Both the position numbers and the translations under genes were made by a program. Positions 2,319 to 27,590 of a stretch of DNA of 64,000 nucleotides are shown here, one piece after another. Source of the DNA: Pedobacter polaris (GTDB lineage Bacteria > Bacteroidota > Bacteroidia > Sphingobacteriales > Sphingobacteriaceae); assembly GCF_005116505.1 (NCBI RefSeq), contig NZ_SWBR01000005.1:248001-312000 (forward strand), written 5' to 3'. The notes beneath the pieces are model-generated. The model had not been told where the DNA came from and searched no databases. It was given only the letters and a program-made list of their open reading frames with translations. Numbering within the stretch: position 1 is the stretch's first letter; each line of letters begins with the position of its first letter.

Positions 2319-3341
2319 TTATTGCATTAAGAATTTATAATTACCAATGTTTTTTAAAGCGATACCAGTACCACGAACTACTGCACGAAGTGGATCTTCG
2401 GCAACGTGAACAGGTAACTTTGTTTTAGCAGCTACACGTTTATCCAAACCGCGTAACAATGCACCACCACCTGTTAAATAAATACCAGTTTGATAAATAT
2501 CTGCAGAAAGCTCTGGTGGAGTAATCTCTAAAGCTTTTAAAATCGCTTCTTCAATTTTAGAGATGGATTTGTCTAAACAATGTGCAATCTCCGTATAAGA
2601 AACCGTAATTTGTTTTGGTACGCCAGTCATTAGATCTCTTCCTTGAACGGCAAAATCTGCAGGTGGATCTGCTAATTCTGGTAAAGCTGCACCAACTTCA
2701 ATCTTAATTTTTTCTGCAGTACGATCACCAATCATAATGTTGTGTTGGCGACGGATGTAATTCACTATATCAGAATCGAAGTTATCTCCCGCAACTCGGA
2801 TAGATTGATCGCAAACAATACCTGATAAAGCAATAACCGCAATTTCTGTAGTACCACCACCTATATCAATGATCATGTTTCCCATTGGTTCTTCTACATC
2901 GATACCAATACCTACTGCTGCAGCCATTGGCTCATGAATAAGATAAACCTCTTTAGCGCCAGCAATTTCTGCACTATCTCTAACGGCACGTTTTTCAACC
3001 TCAGTAATACCAGATGGAATGCAAATTACCATTCTTAATGAAGGGAACATCCATCCTTTACCTCCGTTAAGCATACGAATCATTCCTTTAATCATGGCTT
3101 CTGCAGCATTAAAATCTGCAATTACACCATCTTTTAAAGGCCTAACTGTTCTAATGTTATCGTGTGTTTTACCTTCCATTTGCATCGCCTGACGGCCAAT
3201 TGCAATGATTTTGTTTGTTTGTCTGTCAAAAGCAACAATAGATGGTTCGTCTACTACTACTTTGTCGTTATGTATGATAAGGGTATTCGCAGTGCCTAAA
3301 TCGATGGCAACTTCTTGCGTAAACCAATTAAATAATCCCAT
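2319..3341 (-). CDS. mreB: Rod shape-determining protein MreB (actin homologue)
   Basis: Cytoplasmic actin-like ATPase that guides lateral wall synthesis; 340 aa, the usual length. Actin-superfamily phosphate motifs are visible: IDLGTANTL near residue 14, the second phosphate motif IDIGGGTTEIAV near 160, and the adenosine motif YLTGGGALLRGLD near 290. The N-terminal amphipathic stretch MGLFNWFTQ fits membrane binding. First gene of the mre operon; a TAnnTTTG promoter box lies about 44 bp upstream. Confidence 0.98.
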   Translation of the reverse strand: MGLFNWFTQEVAIDLGTANTLIIHNDKVVVDEPSIVAFDRQTNKIIAIGRQAMQMEGKTHDNIRTVRPLKDGVIADFNAAEAMIKGMIRMLNGGKGWMFPSLRMVICIPSGITEVEKRAVRDSAEIAGAKEVYLIHEPMAAAVGIGIDVEEPMGNMIIDIGGGTTEIAVIALSGIVCDQSIRVAGDNFDSDIVNYIRRQHNIMIGDRTAEKIKIEVGAALPELADPPADFAVQGRDLMTGVPKQITVSYTEIAHCLDKSISKIEEAILKALEITPPELSADIYQTGIYLTGGGALLRGLDKRVAAKTKLPVHVAEDPLRAVVRGTGIALKNIGNYKFLMQ

Positions 3342-7452: not shown

Positions 7453-8292
7453 ATGAAACGAACCCTTATACTCTTATTCCTTTGCTTATCACTTATTTCG
7501 GTATCAAATGCCCAGAAAAACCAACCGATTAATGTGATGTCGTATAATATTAGGCTGAATGTTGCATCTGATGGAATTAATGCATGGCCAAATAGAAAGG
7601 ACAATGTTAAAGCATTAATCAAATTTTACGATACCGATATTTTGTGTGTTCAAGAAGCATTGCCAGAGCAATTTGATGATTTATTAGCCAATACAGATTT
7701 TGATGTTGTTGGGGCAGGAAGAGATGATGGTAAAAGAAAAGGAGAATTTTCTGCTGTATATTTTAATAAAAATCGTTTTACGAAAAAAGATGGTGGAACT
7801 TTTTGGTTATCAACAACTCCAGATGTGCCAAGTAAAGGTTGGGATGCAGCTTTAAATAGAGTTTGCTCTTGGGTTAAACTTTATGATAAATCTAATAAAA
7901 AGGAGTTTATTGTTTTTAACACACATTATGATCATATTGGTGTACAGGCAAGAATTGAATCAGCTAAATTAATTAAACAAAAAATTCAACAGATAGCGCC
8001 AACCTTACCTGTAATTTTTACTGGTGATTTAAATGTAACTCCAGAAACTGAGGCAATTGCTACCATTAAATCTTTCCTAATAGATACTAAAGAAGTTACT
8101 ATAGAACCTCCTTATGGCCCAAATGGAACTTTTAATGCTTTTAAGTGGGATAGCCCACTACAGAATAAAATCGATTATATTTTCGTAAATAAAGCATTTA
8201 AGGTTCAAAAATTTGCTGCTTTATCAGACAGTAAAGACCAACGTTATTATTCAGACCATTTGCCTGTTTTTGTGAAGTTGTTTTTTAATTAA
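7453..8292 (+). CDS. Secreted endonuclease/exonuclease/phosphatase family protein
   Basis: 279 aa with a Sec signal peptide (about residues 1-20, cleavage after NAQ). EEP-fold active-site motifs are in order: NVMSYNIRLN, CVQEALP (metal Glu), NTHYDHIG, FTGDLNVTP (GDLN) and YYSDHLPVFV (catalytic SDH). The fold covers nucleases, phosphodiesterases and sphingomyelinase-like phospholipases; the substrate cannot be read from sequence. It ends 6 nt before the Lgt-like gene in the same frame, so it probably heads that operon, where a lipid phosphodiester substrate would fit. That last point is inference. Confidence 0.85.
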   Translation: MKRTLILLFLCLSLISVSNAQKNQPINVMSYNIRLNVASDGINAWPNRKDNVKALIKFYDTDILCVQEALPEQFDDLLANTDFDVVGAGRDDGKRKGEFSAVYFNKNRFTKKDGGTFWLSTTPDVPSKGWDAALNRVCSWVKLYDKSNKKEFIVFNTHYDHIGVQARIESAKLIKQKIQQIAPTLPVIFTGDLNVTPETEAIATIKSFLIDTKEVTIEPPYGPNGTFNAFKWDSPLQNKIDYIFVNKAFKVQKFAALSDSKDQRYYSDHLPVFVKLFFN

Positions 8293-8298
8293 GCTATT

Positions 8299-9075
8299 TT
8301 GTTTTTAGCTAATTACATTCACTTTCCAGTTCAATTTGAGATTAATGGTAACCTATACCATTGGCACTATATTCTAGAAACTTTAGCTTTTATCATTGGT
8401 ATTAGAGTTTATTATCAATTAAAAAAGAATGTAAAGGATCCTATTTCTGATGAAAATCGACTTTGGATTATGCTAGGGGCAATGCTCGGGGCCTTAATAG
8501 GGTCAAGAGTAATTGCTATTCTAGAAACTCCAGCAGAATTAAGTCAAATTACTTTTATGACATTATATGCAAGCAAAACAATAGCTGGTGGGTTGTTAGG
8601 TGGTTTATTTGGAGTCGAAATCATTAAAAAATTTATAGGTGTAAGAATTGCTTCGGGGGATCTATACGTCATTCCAATTCTTGTATCATTATTTATAGGA
8701 AGGCTTGGGTGCTTTTTTATGGGGGTAGATGAACCTACTTTTGGTATCAAAACTAGCTTTTTTATGGGAATGGATTTGGGTGATGGAATAAAAAGACACC
8801 CAGTGGCCTTATATGAAATGATTTATGTAGTCCTACTTTTTATATTGTTTCAATCTATTAAAAATAAATATTTGTTAAATGGGGATCGGTTTAAACTTTT
8901 TATGGTACTGTACTTTTTGTTCCGTTTTTTAGTTGAATTTATCAAGCCTTATCATCCTTTATTCCTAAGTTTAAGTAGCATTCATTGGTCGGCTATATTT
9001 ATTTTTATCTATTATTATAAATTCTTTATTAGATTGACTAATCAAATGCTATTACAAAAGCAAATCTATGGCTAA
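8299..9075 (+). CDS. Divergent Lgt-like (prolipoprotein diacylglyceryl transferase family) membrane protein
   Basis: 258 aa, about seven membrane helices. Lgt family marks: FIGRLGCFF (residues 132-140, the GRxGNFxN signature region with its Arg), RHPVALYE (166-173) and FRFLVEF (208-214, second essential Arg). The usual SFHGG motif is replaced by TIAGG (94-98), so the His counted as essential in E. coli Lgt is missing, and the Asn of the signature is Cys. This looks like a paralogue with another acceptor, not the housekeeping Lgt. The only plausible start is TTG at 8299, directly after the EEP stop. It overlaps the radical SAM gene by 8 bp. Confidence 0.8.
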   Translation: MFLANYIHFPVQFEINGNLYHWHYILETLAFIIGIRVYYQLKKNVKDPISDENRLWIMLGAMLGALIGSRVIAILETPAELSQITFMTLYASKTIAGGLLGGLFGVEIIKKFIGVRIASGDLYVIPILVSLFIGRLGCFFMGVDEPTFGIKTSFFMGMDLGDGIKRHPVALYEMIYVVLLFILFQSIKNKYLLNGDRFKLFMVLYFLFRFLVEFIKPYHPLFLSLSSIHWSAIFIFIYYYKFFIRLTNQMLLQKQIYG

Positions 9076-10462
9076 TACGAGAGATTATATTTATTACGAT
9101 TATACTAAAAGCTTGTGCCCAGAGTGTTTAATGCTATGTGATGCAAAAATTGTGTTTCAGGATGCGAAAGTTTATATGCTTAAACATTGCAAAAGTCATG
9201 GCGACAGTAAGGTAATGATTGCCGATGATGTAGAATATTATAAGCAGATTAGGAATTACAACAAGCAATCTGAAATGCCTTTAAAATTTAATACAAAAGT
9301 GCATTATGGCTGTCCGTATGATTGTGGTTTATGTACAGATCATGAGCAACATTCTTGTTTAACGGTTATTGAGGTTACTGATAGATGTAATTTGGCCTGC
9401 CCAACATGTTACGCCATGTCTTCTCCTAATTATGGCAGACACAGAACTTTAGAAGAGATAGAAAAAATGATGGATGTGGTTGTTGCAAATGAAGGTGAGC
9501 CAGATGTGGTGCAACTTTCTGGTGGTGAGCCAACTGTACATCCTGATTTTTTTAAGATTCTAGATTTGGCAAAAACTAAACCCATTAAACACTTAATGGT
9601 AAACACAAATGGCATCCGCATTGCGAAAGACATTAGCTTTGTTGAAAAATTGGCAAGTTATATGCCAGATTTCGAGATTTATTTGCAGTTTGATAGTTTC
9701 AGCGCAGAAGTTCTAACCAAGTTAAGGGGGGAAGATTTAACTGAAGTGAGGAGAAAGGCAATTGAACATCTCAATCAATTTAATGTATCTACAACCCTTG
9801 TTGTTACTTTACAAAATGGATTAAATGACCATGAAATTGGCGATATTTTAGCTTATGCATTAAAACAGAAATGTGTTAGAGGTGTAACTTTTCAGCCTAC
9901 GCAGGTTGCGGGTAGAAACGATGACTACAACGACCAAAAGGGGAGAATAACCCTAACGGAAGTTCGCAGGAAAATATATGATCAATATCCAATTTTCACT
10001 CCACAAGATTTAATCCCTGTTCCATGCAATCCTGATGCTTTGTGTATGGCTTATGCACTAAAAATTGGCGATGAAGTTATTCCGATGACACATTTAATCA
10101 ATCCTGAAGATTTGTTAAATAATTCAAAAAATACAATAGTTTTTGAGCATGATGAGAAGTTGAAAGCGCATATGCTAAATTTATTTAGTACAGGCGTTTC
10201 AGTAGATTGTGCCGAAGATACTTTTGGAGAGTTAATGTGTTGCCTACCTAGAGTTAAATCAGATAATTTAAGTTATGATAATTTATTTCGCATTATTATT
10301 ATGAACTTCATGGATCCTTTAGACTTTGATGTTAGAGCGGTAAAAAAATCATGTGTACACATTGTGAGTGATAAATATAAAATCGTTCCATTTGAAACAA
10401 TGAATATTTTTTATCGAGATCATAAAATTGATACGATAAGAGAAAAATTAAACCTAAATTAG
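9068..10462 (+). CDS. Radical SAM protein resembling archaeal tetraether lipid synthase (Tes)
   Basis: 464 aa. The radical SAM motif is C107-x3-C111-x2-C114 (RCNLACPTC), followed by the SAM-binding LSGGEPTVHP (150-159). N-terminal cysteines give a rubredoxin-like set (C17, C20, C24, C41) and an auxiliary cluster set (C82-x3-C86-x2-C89, C97); more cysteines lie at 320, 326, 381, 391-392 and 429. The block CPYDCGLC...CLTVIEVTDRCNLACPTC closely resembles the MJ0619/Tes family, which joins lipid tails by C-C bonds. No membrane segment. Start ATG 9068 inside the end of the Lgt-like gene: coupled translation. Substrate here is unknown; a lipid tail is inferred from family and neighbour. Confidence 0.85.
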   Translation: MANTRDYIYYDYTKSLCPECLMLCDAKIVFQDAKVYMLKHCKSHGDSKVMIADDVEYYKQIRNYNKQSEMPLKFNTKVHYGCPYDCGLCTDHEQHSCLTVIEVTDRCNLACPTCYAMSSPNYGRHRTLEEIEKMMDVVVANEGEPDVVQLSGGEPTVHPDFFKILDLAKTKPIKHLMVNTNGIRIAKDISFVEKLASYMPDFEIYLQFDSFSAEVLTKLRGEDLTEVRRKAIEHLNQFNVSTTLVVTLQNGLNDHEIGDILAYALKQKCVRGVTFQPTQVAGRNDDYNDQKGRITLTEVRRKIYDQYPIFTPQDLIPVPCNPDALCMAYALKIGDEVIPMTHLINPEDLLNNSKNTIVFEHDEKLKAHMLNLFSTGVSVDCAEDTFGELMCCLPRVKSDNLSYDNLFRIIIMNFMDPLDFDVRAVKKSCVHIVSDKYKIVPFETMNIFYRDHKIDTIREKLNLN

Positions 10463-10465
10463 AAT

Positions 10466-10672
10466 ATGGAAGGTATTATAGTTTTAAGCATTGCATATTG
10501 GCTTGCTGCAGGTGTAGTTTTTCTAATAGGCTTAATTCAGCTTATCATTAAATCATCAAAGAATGAGCCCCTAAAGCCAGCTTTAAAACTGTTAATTATT
10601 TCGGTAATAATGTTGGTGATAGGCGTTGGTGCTTGTGCAGTTATATTAGGCGGTTTGGGTGGTATGCACTAA
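10466..10672 (+). CDS. Small two-helix membrane protein of the Lgt-like/radical SAM operon
   Basis: 68 aa starting 3 nt after the radical SAM stop codon. Two hydrophobic helices (about residues 4-28 and 41-62) are joined by a short basic loop (KSSKNEPLK); the second is rich in Gly and Ala. No known motif. Tight spacing suggests it is made with the two upstream proteins and may anchor or recruit them to the membrane; that is inference. Confidence 0.7.
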   Translation: MEGIIVLSIAYWLAAGVVFLIGLIQLIIKSSKNEPLKPALKLLIISVIMLVIGVGACAVILGGLGGMH

Positions 10673-10694
10673 TATATTTAAATTTGTAGAAATT

Positions 10695-11183
10695 ATGAAA
10701 AGAATATTAACAATAGCGCTATTTGTTTTAGTTGTTTTTGGCTGTGAAAAACCAATTAGGGGTGTAGATATTAATGCAGATGTGAGTTTTTTATTTTTAA
10801 ATTCAAAAGGTGAGGATCTTTTAAATACAAATACTGCAGGTGCGCTGACGGAAGAAAATGTAGATATATATGTTCTAAGAAACGGATCAAAAATACGTTT
10901 ATATCAAGGTAATCTAGATGCAGCGAAATTTTTTAAGATTAGAACCGAAAATGGTAAAAGTAGATTTCAAATGTACTTTGATATCAGTACTGAAAATTTT
11001 AGCGGAAACAAAATCACTCAATTTATTAGGTACAAGGATGGTACGGAAGATGAGATTGTTGGAGAATTTAATTCAGACAGAAAAAGAAATACGCTTTTGC
11101 AGCAAATTTGGATTAATGGTACAGCTAAATCAAGAATAGAAACCGGAAATTCAGGTCAAAACCCTTTAGTAATAGTAAAATAA
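10695..11183 (+). CDS. Putative lipoprotein, end of the Lgt-like/radical SAM operon
   Basis: 162 aa from the ATG at 10695. A longer in-frame start at 10659 would place 12 residues before a normal lipoprotein signal, so it is rejected. The signal (MKRILTIALFVLVVFGC) ends in a lipobox with Cys18. The mature part is beta-rich (VDIYVLRNGSKIRLYQG, FIRYKDGTEDEIVGEF) and ends hydrophobic (NPLVIVK). No family recognised. It lies 22 nt after the two-helix gene and probably belongs to the same transcript. Confidence 0.72.
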   Translation: MKRILTIALFVLVVFGCEKPIRGVDINADVSFLFLNSKGEDLLNTNTAGALTEENVDIYVLRNGSKIRLYQGNLDAAKFFKIRTENGKSRFQMYFDISTENFSGNKITQFIRYKDGTEDEIVGEFNSDRKRNTLLQQIWINGTAKSRIETGNSGQNPLVIVK

Positions 11184-25838: not shown

Positions 25839-27590
25839 TTAGAAGTTTTTACCGATTTTCTCCAACATTTCTGCCGGAATCTTGTGTGCATCAACTACTA
25901 AAAATCCATCTAAACAGTCAGAAAACTTAGGATCTATATTAAAGCAGATGATCTTTGCATTCAAATTCATGTACTGACGAAGTAGCACTGGTATTTTTAT
26001 GTGTGAGTTTTCTATATCGCCAATTAAACCATCTAAGTCTTTTAATGAATCGCTGCTCTCTACCAACAAGTCGGTGTCAATAGCAGTAAGATCTGCCTTA
26101 AACTTGTTTTTTGGTTTTACATAAGAAGCCAATTCATAATCAAAATGGTTCTTAATAATGTAATCTACAATTATTGATTTAGATAATTTCGAGAAATTAT
26201 TACTAATACTAACGGGCCCGAACATGTAACGGTATTGTGGATTATCTACTAAATATTTTAAAATTCCTTTCCACAATAAGAACAGTGGCAATGGTTTTTG
26301 TTGATATTCTTTTCTAATCCACGATCTTCCAAGTTCAATTCCTTGTCTTAATATTGGATAAAAAGGCTCTTTAATTTTAAATAATTCTGATAGGTAAAAA
26401 CCTCTACGGCCCATCGTATTTAAAATCTCATCTCCCTTCCCAATTCTATATGCCCCAACTATATTCTGTAAATCTTTATCCCAAATAAATAGGTGATTAT
26501 AGTAAATGTCGTAATTATCTAAGTCAATTTTTTTATTTGTACCCTCGCCAACTTCTCTAAAAGTAATTTCGCGTAAACGACCAATTTCTCTTAAAATATT
26601 AGGTATGCTAGCAGTAGGTACAATATATACTTCGTAGTTTTTCTCTTCCCATACTCTAAATTCCTCCAGTTTAGCAACTTCATTTACAATTAAAGTTCTA
26701 TTGGTTTCTTCTACAACAGCTTCAGGTTTCTTCTTGCGTTTAAAGAGATTTATTGGGTTAAATAGTTTTTTATCCTCCTCTAAACTTGTGCCTAGGGCAT
26801 AGGTTCTTGCTCTTAAAAAGTCAAGTAGCTTATTGGTATCTTTTTTATAAGATATATCTTCTATCTTAATTGGTTTGCCAATTCTAACCTTAATTTTTAA
26901 GCCTTGTTTGTTTAAAAACTCTGATGGTAATTTAGCGGTTCTTAATGTAGGGTGAATAAAGCTGAGTATATTAAAAAGAACACCATTATTGCCATGGAAA
27001 TAAATTGGAATTACAGGAACTTTTGAGCGTGAAATCAATTTACCGACTACAGGATGCCAAAGTCTGTCTGTTACTTCTTGTGTTTCTAAATTAAAAGTAG
27101 AAACCTCACCAGCTGGGAAAATGCCGATAGGTGTGCCACTTTGCAATAAATCGAAAGTAGCTTTTAAACCACTAATGCTTGAGGAATGTTGAACATTTTC
27201 AAAAGGATTAACAGCAACAAAGAACTCACTTAGGTTTGGTATTTTCTTTAGAATAAAATTTACCATTACTTTCGCCTCAGGTCTAACGGTGCACAAAAGT
27301 TTAACCAAGGCTAAACCCTCTACACCGCCATAAGGGTGATTGGCAATGGCGATAAAACCGCCAGTTTTTGGTATGTTTTTTAAATCATCTTCATCAAAAT
27401 CTATCGATACACCTATGGTCTCTAAAATTTTGTCAACAAATTCTAATCCGGCAAAATGTTCGTTCTTAGAAAATACTTTGTTGATGTCATTTAACTTCAT
27501 TACTTCCATTAATAAAGCTGCCAGACCTGGAACGCCTAACTTGTCTATTTTGGTCGCTTTGGCAAACTCTTGTTTAGTAATAATCTTCAT
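25839..27590 (-). CDS. olsF: Fused two-domain acyltransferase (PlsC-like plus GNAT), OlsF type
   Basis: 583 aa. The N-terminal PlsC/LPLAT-like domain has AIANHPYGGVEG (about 81-92, the H(x)nacid motif) and GIFPAGEVSTF (about 156-166, equivalent of FPEGTRS). The C-terminal half (about 300-520) is a GNAT-like acyl-ACP N-acyltransferase domain of the OlsB/hemolysin type (NIVGAYRIGKGDEI, GRRGFYLSELF, ELGRSW, GPVSIS). Fusions of this order make ornithine lipids in other bacteria; glycine lipids, known from Bacteroides, are an alternative product. Such phosphorus-free lipids are often made under phosphate limitation. A -7 box lies at 27624-27631. Confidence 0.82.
   Translation of the reverse strand: MKIITKQEFAKATKIDKLGVPGLAALLMEVMKLNDINKVFSKNEHFAGLEFVDKILETIGVSIDFDEDDLKNIPKTGGFIAIANHPYGGVEGLALVKLLCTVRPEAKVMVNFILKKIPNLSEFFVAVNPFENVQHSSSISGLKATFDLLQSGTPIGIFPAGEVSTFNLETQEVTDRLWHPVVGKLISRSKVPVIPIYFHGNNGVLFNILSFIHPTLRTAKLPSEFLNKQGLKIKVRIGKPIKIEDISYKKDTNKLLDFLRARTYALGTSLEEDKKLFNPINLFKRKKKPEAVVEETNRTLIVNEVAKLEEFRVWEEKNYEVYIVPTASIPNILREIGRLREITFREVGEGTNKKIDLDNYDIYYNHLFIWDKDLQNIVGAYRIGKGDEILNTMGRRGFYLSELFKIKEPFYPILRQGIELGRSWIRKEYQQKPLPLFLLWKGILKYLVDNPQYRYMFGPVSISNNFSKLSKSIIVDYIIKNHFDYELASYVKPKNKFKADLTAIDTDLLVESSDSLKDLDGLIGDIENSHIKIPVLLRQYMNLNAKIICFNIDPKFSDCLDGFLVVDAHKIPAEMLEKIGKNF

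Follow-up and report, generated by a model that had tools for sequence, protein, structure and literature searches.

The enzyme Lgt acts at the outer side of the membrane (PMC4728403), and the essential residues of the Escherichia coli protein have been described (PMC4728403, PMC13251419; all papers are cited here from parts of their text). For the radical SAM enzyme Tes (GDGT-MAS), the ligands of the metal sites have been published, together with a bond between a substrate carbon and a cluster sulfur that is discussed for the C-terminal cluster (PMC9433317). Lloyd et al. report that the Tes family has members in bacteria from which biphytanyl chains are not known (PMC9433317), and what the bacterial Tes homologs do is a matter left for later tests by Zeng et al. 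(PMC8941075). Another enzyme, Mss, couples alkyl chains and gives membrane-spanning lipids in bacteria (PMC13274423). The MYXO-CTERM proteins carry an invariant Cys beside a C-terminal helix, and a lipidation of this Cys by an Lgt-like enzyme has been predicted (PMC11980579). The window analysed here is a stretch of 64,000 nucleotides from Pedobacter polaris (contig NZ_SWBR01000005.1, positions 248,001 to 312,000). It contains a module composed of a divergent Lgt paralog (Lgt-like), a radical SAM enzyme related to Tes and TrsS (RSAM) and a small membrane protein with a conserved Cys (Table 1). We consider that the best explanation of the whole, with a probability of about 0.5, is a horizontally mobile module of protein lipidation.

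RSAM was searched in 296 Bacteroidota genomes (match with E <= 1e-30) and Lgt-like was detected with a profile (E <= 1e-30). RSAM is present in 26 genomes, Lgt-like in 25 and both in 24 (Fisher p 6e-32, shared ancestry being ignored). The two genomes with RSAM and no Lgt-like are G066, whose enzyme is a Tes by score, and G096, where an adjacent Lgt relative scores lower. The parts are not always contiguous: G034 has them on three contigs (RSAM on C21, Lgt-like on C58 and the small protein on C62), and in G272 Lgt-like and RSAM are on different contigs. A collection of 105 loci was then examined, of which 25 come from the genome set and 80 are the best of at least 535 named matches; two repeats and the Tes-scoring L054 were removed to give 102 distinct loci. 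Lgt-like is found at 2.5 kb or less from RSAM in 94 of these. Concerning the eight others, four have less than 900 nt of upstream sequence (L069, L071, L073 and L135), two have Lgt-like on another contig (L043 and L047), L099 has it about 4 kb upstream, and no Lgt-like was found for L098. The small membrane protein likewise adjoins the module in 94 of the 102 loci, 90 being detected by script and four by eye (L047, L055, L131 and L133), and the association of the two enzymes with the small membrane gene, put forward in the initial annotation, is thus observed. Among the eight loci without an adjacent small protein, a genome-wide profile search finds matches elsewhere for L043, L070, L080 and L122 (the Cys was read in L043 and L070), and the sequence of L053 ends 84 nt past RSAM. 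Beyond the parts of the module, no neighbour family is present in more than 21 of the 102 loci within 5 kb. The distances between RSAM sequences follow those between Lgt-like sequences (r 0.86, n=89, the best of 500 permutations reaching 0.23), a correlation that linkage and shared ancestry would give alike. Conservation beyond close relatives, on which the initial annotation had made its proposal depend, is found in Bacteroidota, on mycobacterial plasmids and in Nonomuraea. The unit that is gained or lost as one is composed of Lgt-like, RSAM and the small membrane protein, and we have hardly any doubt that it is real and conserved.

The small membrane proteins were collected by script, the presence of a Cys near the C-terminus being a criterion of selection. 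This list contains 128 distinct proteins of 42-123 amino acids (aa) with 2-3 helices. In an alignment of 49 members, Met1 and Cys57 are the only invariant columns, with a mean column identity of 16%. The context of C57 in the window protein is VIGVGAC-AVILGGLGGMH, and the majority context is I-[GS]-[FL]-[GS]-[ITA]-C-[GAS], where Gly or Ser occupies position -2 in 109 and position -4 in 121 of the 128 proteins. The Cys is found at a median of 17 residues after the last Lys or Arg (middle half 16-20) and is followed by a tail of 1-14 residues; the corresponding median is 14 for 39 putative signal peptides of lipoproteins from the same loci, which were selected with a pattern that itself limits the spacing. 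The Cys thus has a placement like that in a lipoprotein signal peptide, and, as with the acceptor of Lgt, it would stand where a helix ends on the outer side. In contrast to the substrates of Lgt, these proteins display no lipobox (the strict form [LVI][ASTVI][GAS]C is matched by 2/128), and the Cys is situated at the end of the last helix, close to the C-terminus. The mean number of Lys and Arg is 3.7 in the loop, 0.9 in the N-terminal tail and 0.2 in the C-terminal tail, and the loop exceeds the N-terminal tail in 102/127 proteins. As the basic residues are in the loop, the positive-inside rule predicts that the Cys is outside. Between two and four copies of the small protein are present in 31/102 loci.

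When no selection on Cys was applied, 89/105 loci showed a small membrane open reading frame (ORF) at 150 nt or less from the block, and 88 of these have a Cys in the last 25 residues. A profile with the Cys masked, whose seeds are still Cys-selected, matched 126 of 6705 ORFs; 125 are on the same strand within 1.2 kb, and one is 2.2 kb away in L071. Among these matches, L131 has the Cys with a longer tail, and L112 is the only one to show a different residue, Phe, at the Cys position. The motif was found in 0/50 of the other small membrane ORFs of the module loci. The genome of P. polaris contains one credible small protein, linked to the module (E 3.6e-11), the next match (E 0.0018) being in an ORF that resembles Lnt. 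We have also observed a leader-like start (typically MxxLEVGNLxGL) in 28 of the 128 proteins, most of them from flavobacterial loci (among L034-L045 and L077-L119).

The Lgt-like enzyme belongs to the same Pfam family as Lgt (PF01790, 78 bits for a cut-off of 24.9) and is placed under the NCBIfam lgt equivalog (34.6 vs 118.9 bits). Its AlphaFold2 model (predicted local distance difference test, pLDDT, 93.5) has a single match below E 0.001 in the PDB, which is E. coli Lgt (5azb, E 2.4e-6, TM 0.54). The window protein retains the E. coli residues R143 (R135), R239 (R209), Y235 (Y205), E202 (E173) and G142/G145/G154, and it shows the changes Y26 to H23, N146 to C138, R246 to K216 and H103 to A96. 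Across 24 Lgt-like sequences, G142, R143, G145, G154, Y235, R239 and E202 are retained in 24/24 (the Y235 column, Tyr in only 1/23 canonical rows, may be misaligned), E243 is Glu or Asp and R246 is Lys or Arg. The retention of the two donor-binding arginines, combined with the changes at other positions of the active site, is what would be expected if the acceptor (or donor) were new. In the phylogenetic tree the 24 Lgt-like rows are split from 23 canonical Lgt rows with a support of 99/98. Given this separate clade, we rejected the idea that the enzyme is a canonical Lgt or has arisen from one by recent duplication. P. polaris has its own canonical Lgt on another contig (G000:C10), and 20/20 genomes checked hold an Lgt besides that of the module, including all 14 module genomes tested. 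The second Lgt homolog of M. smegmatis displays the same Y26H and N146C changes and is presumed to have low Lgt activity (PMC13251419).

RSAM possesses the Cys layout C17x2C20x20C41x2H44, C82x3C86x2C89 plus H92, and C107x3C111x2C114, which fits the ligands of Tes. The rubredoxin-type site, the N-auxiliary site and the radical SAM site, which are the three metal sites of the N-terminal part of Tes, are thus kept. The sequence matches the Tes structure 7tol with E 1.5e-64, and the best PDB matches of its AlphaFold2 model (pLDDT 75.8, residues 351-401 mostly unreliable) are 7tom/7tol (E 1.6e-34, TM 0.78). The nearest named match of the protein is from Pedobacter frigiditerrae (97%). A Tes-like enzyme had been announced from the Cys layout; the fold and the three cluster sites agree with this, whereas the enzyme stands apart from Tes in the tree, lacks Tyr459 and scores 277.6 bits for the NCBIfam Tes cut-off of 450. 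In this tree, obtained with long-branch warnings, 42 module rows form one side of a branch supported at 98/79 and two Tes rows are apart (100/99). The conserved C-terminal Cys of RSAM are C320, C391, C392 and C429, in place of the CC and FC motifs of Tes, and the position of Tes Met439 is Met in 35/36 Bacteroidota module rows, Thr or Lys in six others and Asp in L054. Because the ligands of the C-terminal cluster are changed, the end reaction may differ from that of Tes. The association with an Lgt partner is a further difference. The best mean hydropathy over 19 residues is 1.05, indicating no membrane helix, and RSAM is presumed to be cytosolic.

An identity of RSAM as plain Tes was rejected from the absence of Tyr459 and the missed cut-off, and the sequence of L054 illustrates how a Tes scores in this phylum. 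In this locus (G066:C91, 6864-8321), the radical SAM enzyme passes the NCBIfam Tes cut-off (493.8 vs 450 bits), matches 7tol with E 4.9e-121 and contains the CC-x-Y and FCTYN motifs of Tes, and no Lgt-like module adjoins it. From its sequence, L054 is a Tes candidate in Bacteroidota.

Outside the Bacteroidota, RSAM stands together with a gene of the Lgt family and with one or two small proteins on two mycobacterial plasmids, one from Mycobacterium branderi and one (pS2b) from M. avium, and in Nonomuraea. The actinobacterial small proteins end in G-x-C-T-G-[LI]-N-P, where the Cys is invariant in 5/5 aligned sequences. That of Nonomuraea (L141, 3099-4205) is a 368-aa protein with a long Pro/Gly-rich N-terminal part followed by helices ending AGICTGINPSLYG, and the Cys tip may serve as a modular anchor on larger proteins. 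The plasmid records with RSAM relatives are 10, of which nine were examined (the haloarchaeal H10 being left out). Five of their loci, from M. vanbaalenii and four haloarchaea (L139, 4977-7345; L140, L142, L143 and L147), contain a TrsS-like RSAM gene followed by a methyltransferase gene, with no annotated Lgt. The residues H95, C97, C320 and C391 are common to RSAM and these TrsS-like plasmid proteins, which likewise score under the TrsS cut-off. No methyltransferase was found among the window neighbours scanned by Pfam, in contrast to the 5/5 TrsS-like plasmid loci, an association drawn from these loci and not from the definition of the family; the partners of RSAM are a paralog of Lgt and a small protein with a Cys. 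Tes homologs have been noted in other Halobacteria in which no glycerol dialkyl glycerol tetraethers were found (PMC8941075), and these homologs may be of the TrsS-like/methyltransferase kind.

The taxonomic distribution suggests that the module is horizontally mobile. The Pedobacter copies are closer to those of Flavobacterium (82-85%) than to those of Mucilaginibacter (69-73%), and the presence of the module is patchy within the genus (G080 has none). One copy is carried by a 1.07-Mb Persicobacter plasmid. A phage origin was rejected: no RSAM match was found among 50,697 phage records, and among viral contigs the Mycobacterium RSAM had no match and query A1 had two weak partial ones of 30%.

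Table 1. Features of the module and of its adjoining genes in the window of P. polaris.
Feature	Position in the window	Strand	Characteristics
EEP-family hydrolase	7453..8292	+	Exo_endo_phos 69 bits; neighbour, outside the module
Lgt-like transferase	8299..9075	+	TTG start; PF01790; divergent second Lgt paralog
RSAM, Tes/TrsS (HMPTM zinc-ribbon) family	9068..10462	+	8-bp overlap with the Lgt-like gene
Small two-helix membrane protein	10466..10672	+	carries the conserved Cys C57; proposed lipidation substrate
TGT codon for the invariant Cys57, towards the end of the second transmembrane helix	10634..10636	+	from the sequence and the alignment of 49
Lipoprotein, VFGC lipobox	10695..11183	+	22-nt gap before; neighbour, outside the module

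The five packed plus-strand genes of the initial annotation are confirmed in their coordinates, protein classes, overlap and gaps of 22 nt or less. Above the Pfam cut-offs, the matches are Exo_endo_phos, LGT, Radical_SAM (95 bits) and the N-terminal HMPTM zinc ribbon (64 bits); the small protein and the lipoprotein of the window match no Pfam or NCBIfam family above cut-off. The gene order is rpsT-like, RadC, EEP, Lgt-like, RSAM, two-helix protein, lipoprotein and PheT (rpsT and PheT being named from sequence). The congener G080, which has no module, shows rpsT-RadC-EEP, a stretch of short ORFs only (the longest of 99 aa) and PheT, and the order in G138 is rpsT-RadC-EEP-[Lgt-like, RSAM, small, small]-PheT. 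EEP is next to the module in 13/105 loci and the lipoprotein in 1/105, which is L056, the closest named relative. From these comparisons, EEP and the lipoprotein, which had been counted as parts of the system, are neighbours and not members of the module. Elsewhere in the window (25839-27590, minus strand) we have detected a 583-aa protein, apparently a fusion of a PlsC-type acyltransferase with a GNAT-like domain, which presumably resembles the OlsF/GlsF amino-acid lipid synthases.

For the chemistry of the module we infer the following steps. RSAM would alter the acyl tails of a phospholipid in the cytosol, perhaps by joining two tails as its family relative Tes does. Lgt-like would then transfer the diacylglyceryl part of this phospholipid to the invariant Cys, whose thiol would accept it where the last helix reaches the outer side. 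The protein would stay uncut and become a polytopic lipoprotein whose lipid anchor is of a special kind, and tandem copies would provide several such lipoproteins per cell. This order is the simplest, because RSAM is presumed to be cytosolic and the Cys is predicted to be outside. The Cys is proposed as the target of Lgt-like from the retained Lgt residues, the placement of the Cys and the co-occurrence of the genes, and on these sequence data an action of Lgt-like on the Cys is somewhat probable. As the motif is not a lipobox, the housekeeping Lgt and Lsp should ignore the small protein, and a housekeeping Lgt unable to read the Cys motif would explain the dedicated paralog. For the action of RSAM on a lipid, we regard the chances as even. 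The cross-linking of tails, suggested by the initial annotation, is left as a possibility only, given the differences of RSAM from Tes, and a C-C bond formed by RSAM between tails is rather doubtful. The complete scheme, in which a lipid remodelled or cross-linked by RSAM, possibly macrocyclic or membrane-spanning, is put on the Cys at the C-terminal tip of uncut multi-spanning lipoproteins, is less likely than not. The benefit could be an adaptation of the membrane or envelope.

Several observations weigh against a lipidation module. On the side of Lgt-like, H103 is replaced by Ala, Val, Met, Leu or Thr in 24/24 sequences (His, Tyr or Phe in 23/23 canonical), Y26 by His in 21/24 (Tyr or Phe in canonical rows) and N146 by Cys in 24/24, although this Cys is also present in 14/23 canonical rows. 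Other Lgts vary at these three positions, the replacements reported at 103 being aromatic (PMC13251419). G017 has a Lgt-like gene (L136, G017:C10:163727-164461), and no RSAM or small protein was found in this genome; a decayed module or another use are suggested as alternatives. On the side of RSAM, the scores are below the cut-offs of both NCBIfam models (TrsS, the closest, 318.6 bits for 490; Tes as given above), Tyr459 of Tes is Ile in 36/36 Bacteroidota module rows and Ile or Val in six others, the Tes Cys at 443 is replaced by Glu or Asp, and four rows (the actinobacterial sequences and L055) have no N-auxiliary ligands. In the five loci read, the TrsS-like relatives of RSAM are paired with a methyltransferase and not with an annotated Lgt, so that it is not certain that enzymes of this branch have a lipid as substrate. 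Concerning the small protein, the genome-wide profile search found none in the genomes of L098, L105 and L113, the charge rule is broken by 22/127 sequences (fewer Lys and Arg in the loop than in the N-terminal tail), and the first copy of L112 (about 2964-3180) has its Phe instead of the Cys, an intact second copy coming after it.

If RSAM were a maturase of the type found for ribosomally synthesized and post-translationally modified peptides (RiPPs), it would modify the small protein itself, for example by a thioether near the Cys, with the lipid added by Lgt-like before or after, and the product would be a lipidated, modified membrane peptide. Tandem, divergent short genes beside a radical SAM gene do resemble precursor peptides, and the leader-like start of 28/128 small proteins is of the L-E-x-G-N type. 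We nevertheless find this unlikely: the charge counts place the Cys outside, away from an enzyme presumed cytosolic from its hydropathy, and the fold is that of Tes, a lipid enzyme (7tom, E 1.6e-34), far above SkfB (E 1.5e-8). The peptide maturase models WgkB, mycofactocin, AlbA and StsB, taken from the best 25 of 58 NCBIfam matches of RSAM, give 44-58 bits for cut-offs of 265-850, against the 318.6 bits of TrsS. A pathway of bulk lipids also has a low probability; here the two enzymes would act on free lipids of the membrane, giving membrane-spanning or other modified forms, and the small protein would serve as a subunit or as a lipid-presenting chaperone with a structural Cys. Iso-branched tails for such a pathway would be supplied by the Bacteroidota lipids. 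In its favour too, Tes makes membrane-spanning lipids and its bacterial homologs have been proposed to do so (PMC9433317, PMC8941075). However, two to four divergent tandem copies that keep little but the Cys are not expected from a subunit, and an Lgt paralog with intact donor-binding arginines is better suited to a thiol acceptor.

The patchy distribution of the module, its probable horizontal spread, its occasional plasmid location and its multiple copies would also be compatible with secreted or membrane-active bacteriocin-like effectors that need lipidation, the whole being a module of competition. No candidate gene for immunity or export recurs, and the commonest other neighbour family (21/102 loci, the functions of neighbours being unannotated) is mostly on the opposite strand, which makes such effectors very improbable. 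As for the initial idea, an operon of five genes with the lipoprotein at 10695-11183 as the end point of its product, it can invoke the tight packing of the window genes and is scarcely credible; the locus counts of the lipoprotein and EEP, and the presence of EEP beside RadC without the module in G080, refute it as a general rule, the Cys of the small protein being the likelier target. A lipidation module acting on this Cys remains our preferred explanation.

In comparison with the described systems, MYXO-CTERM/myxosortase is the nearest idea, the Cys by a C-terminal helix being common to both. However, the polarity is inverted (Cys, helix and cytoplasmic Arg in MYXO-CTERM; basic loop, helix, Cys and short tail in the small proteins), and the present module includes RSAM. 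Mss was compared by description only, and the accessible part of its report (PMC13274423) names neither an Lgt nor a small protein as a partner. A literature search in an accessible full-text collection (without subscription journals and preprints, and covering mostly titles and abstracts) gave no description of the trio or of the RSAM branch. The families of the parts are known, whereas their combination, the acceptor motif and the link between Lgt and RSAM appear to be new. One branch of the Tes family is now tied to a partner enzyme and to a candidate acceptor residue, and the question is reduced to one mass measurement on one Cys. The module predicts a class of lipoproteins that is invisible to lipobox-based prediction, as well as a second function within the Lgt family. 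If this is true, a lipid anchor made by radical chemistry would be placed on a ribosomal protein product and would have spread between phyla as a cassette.

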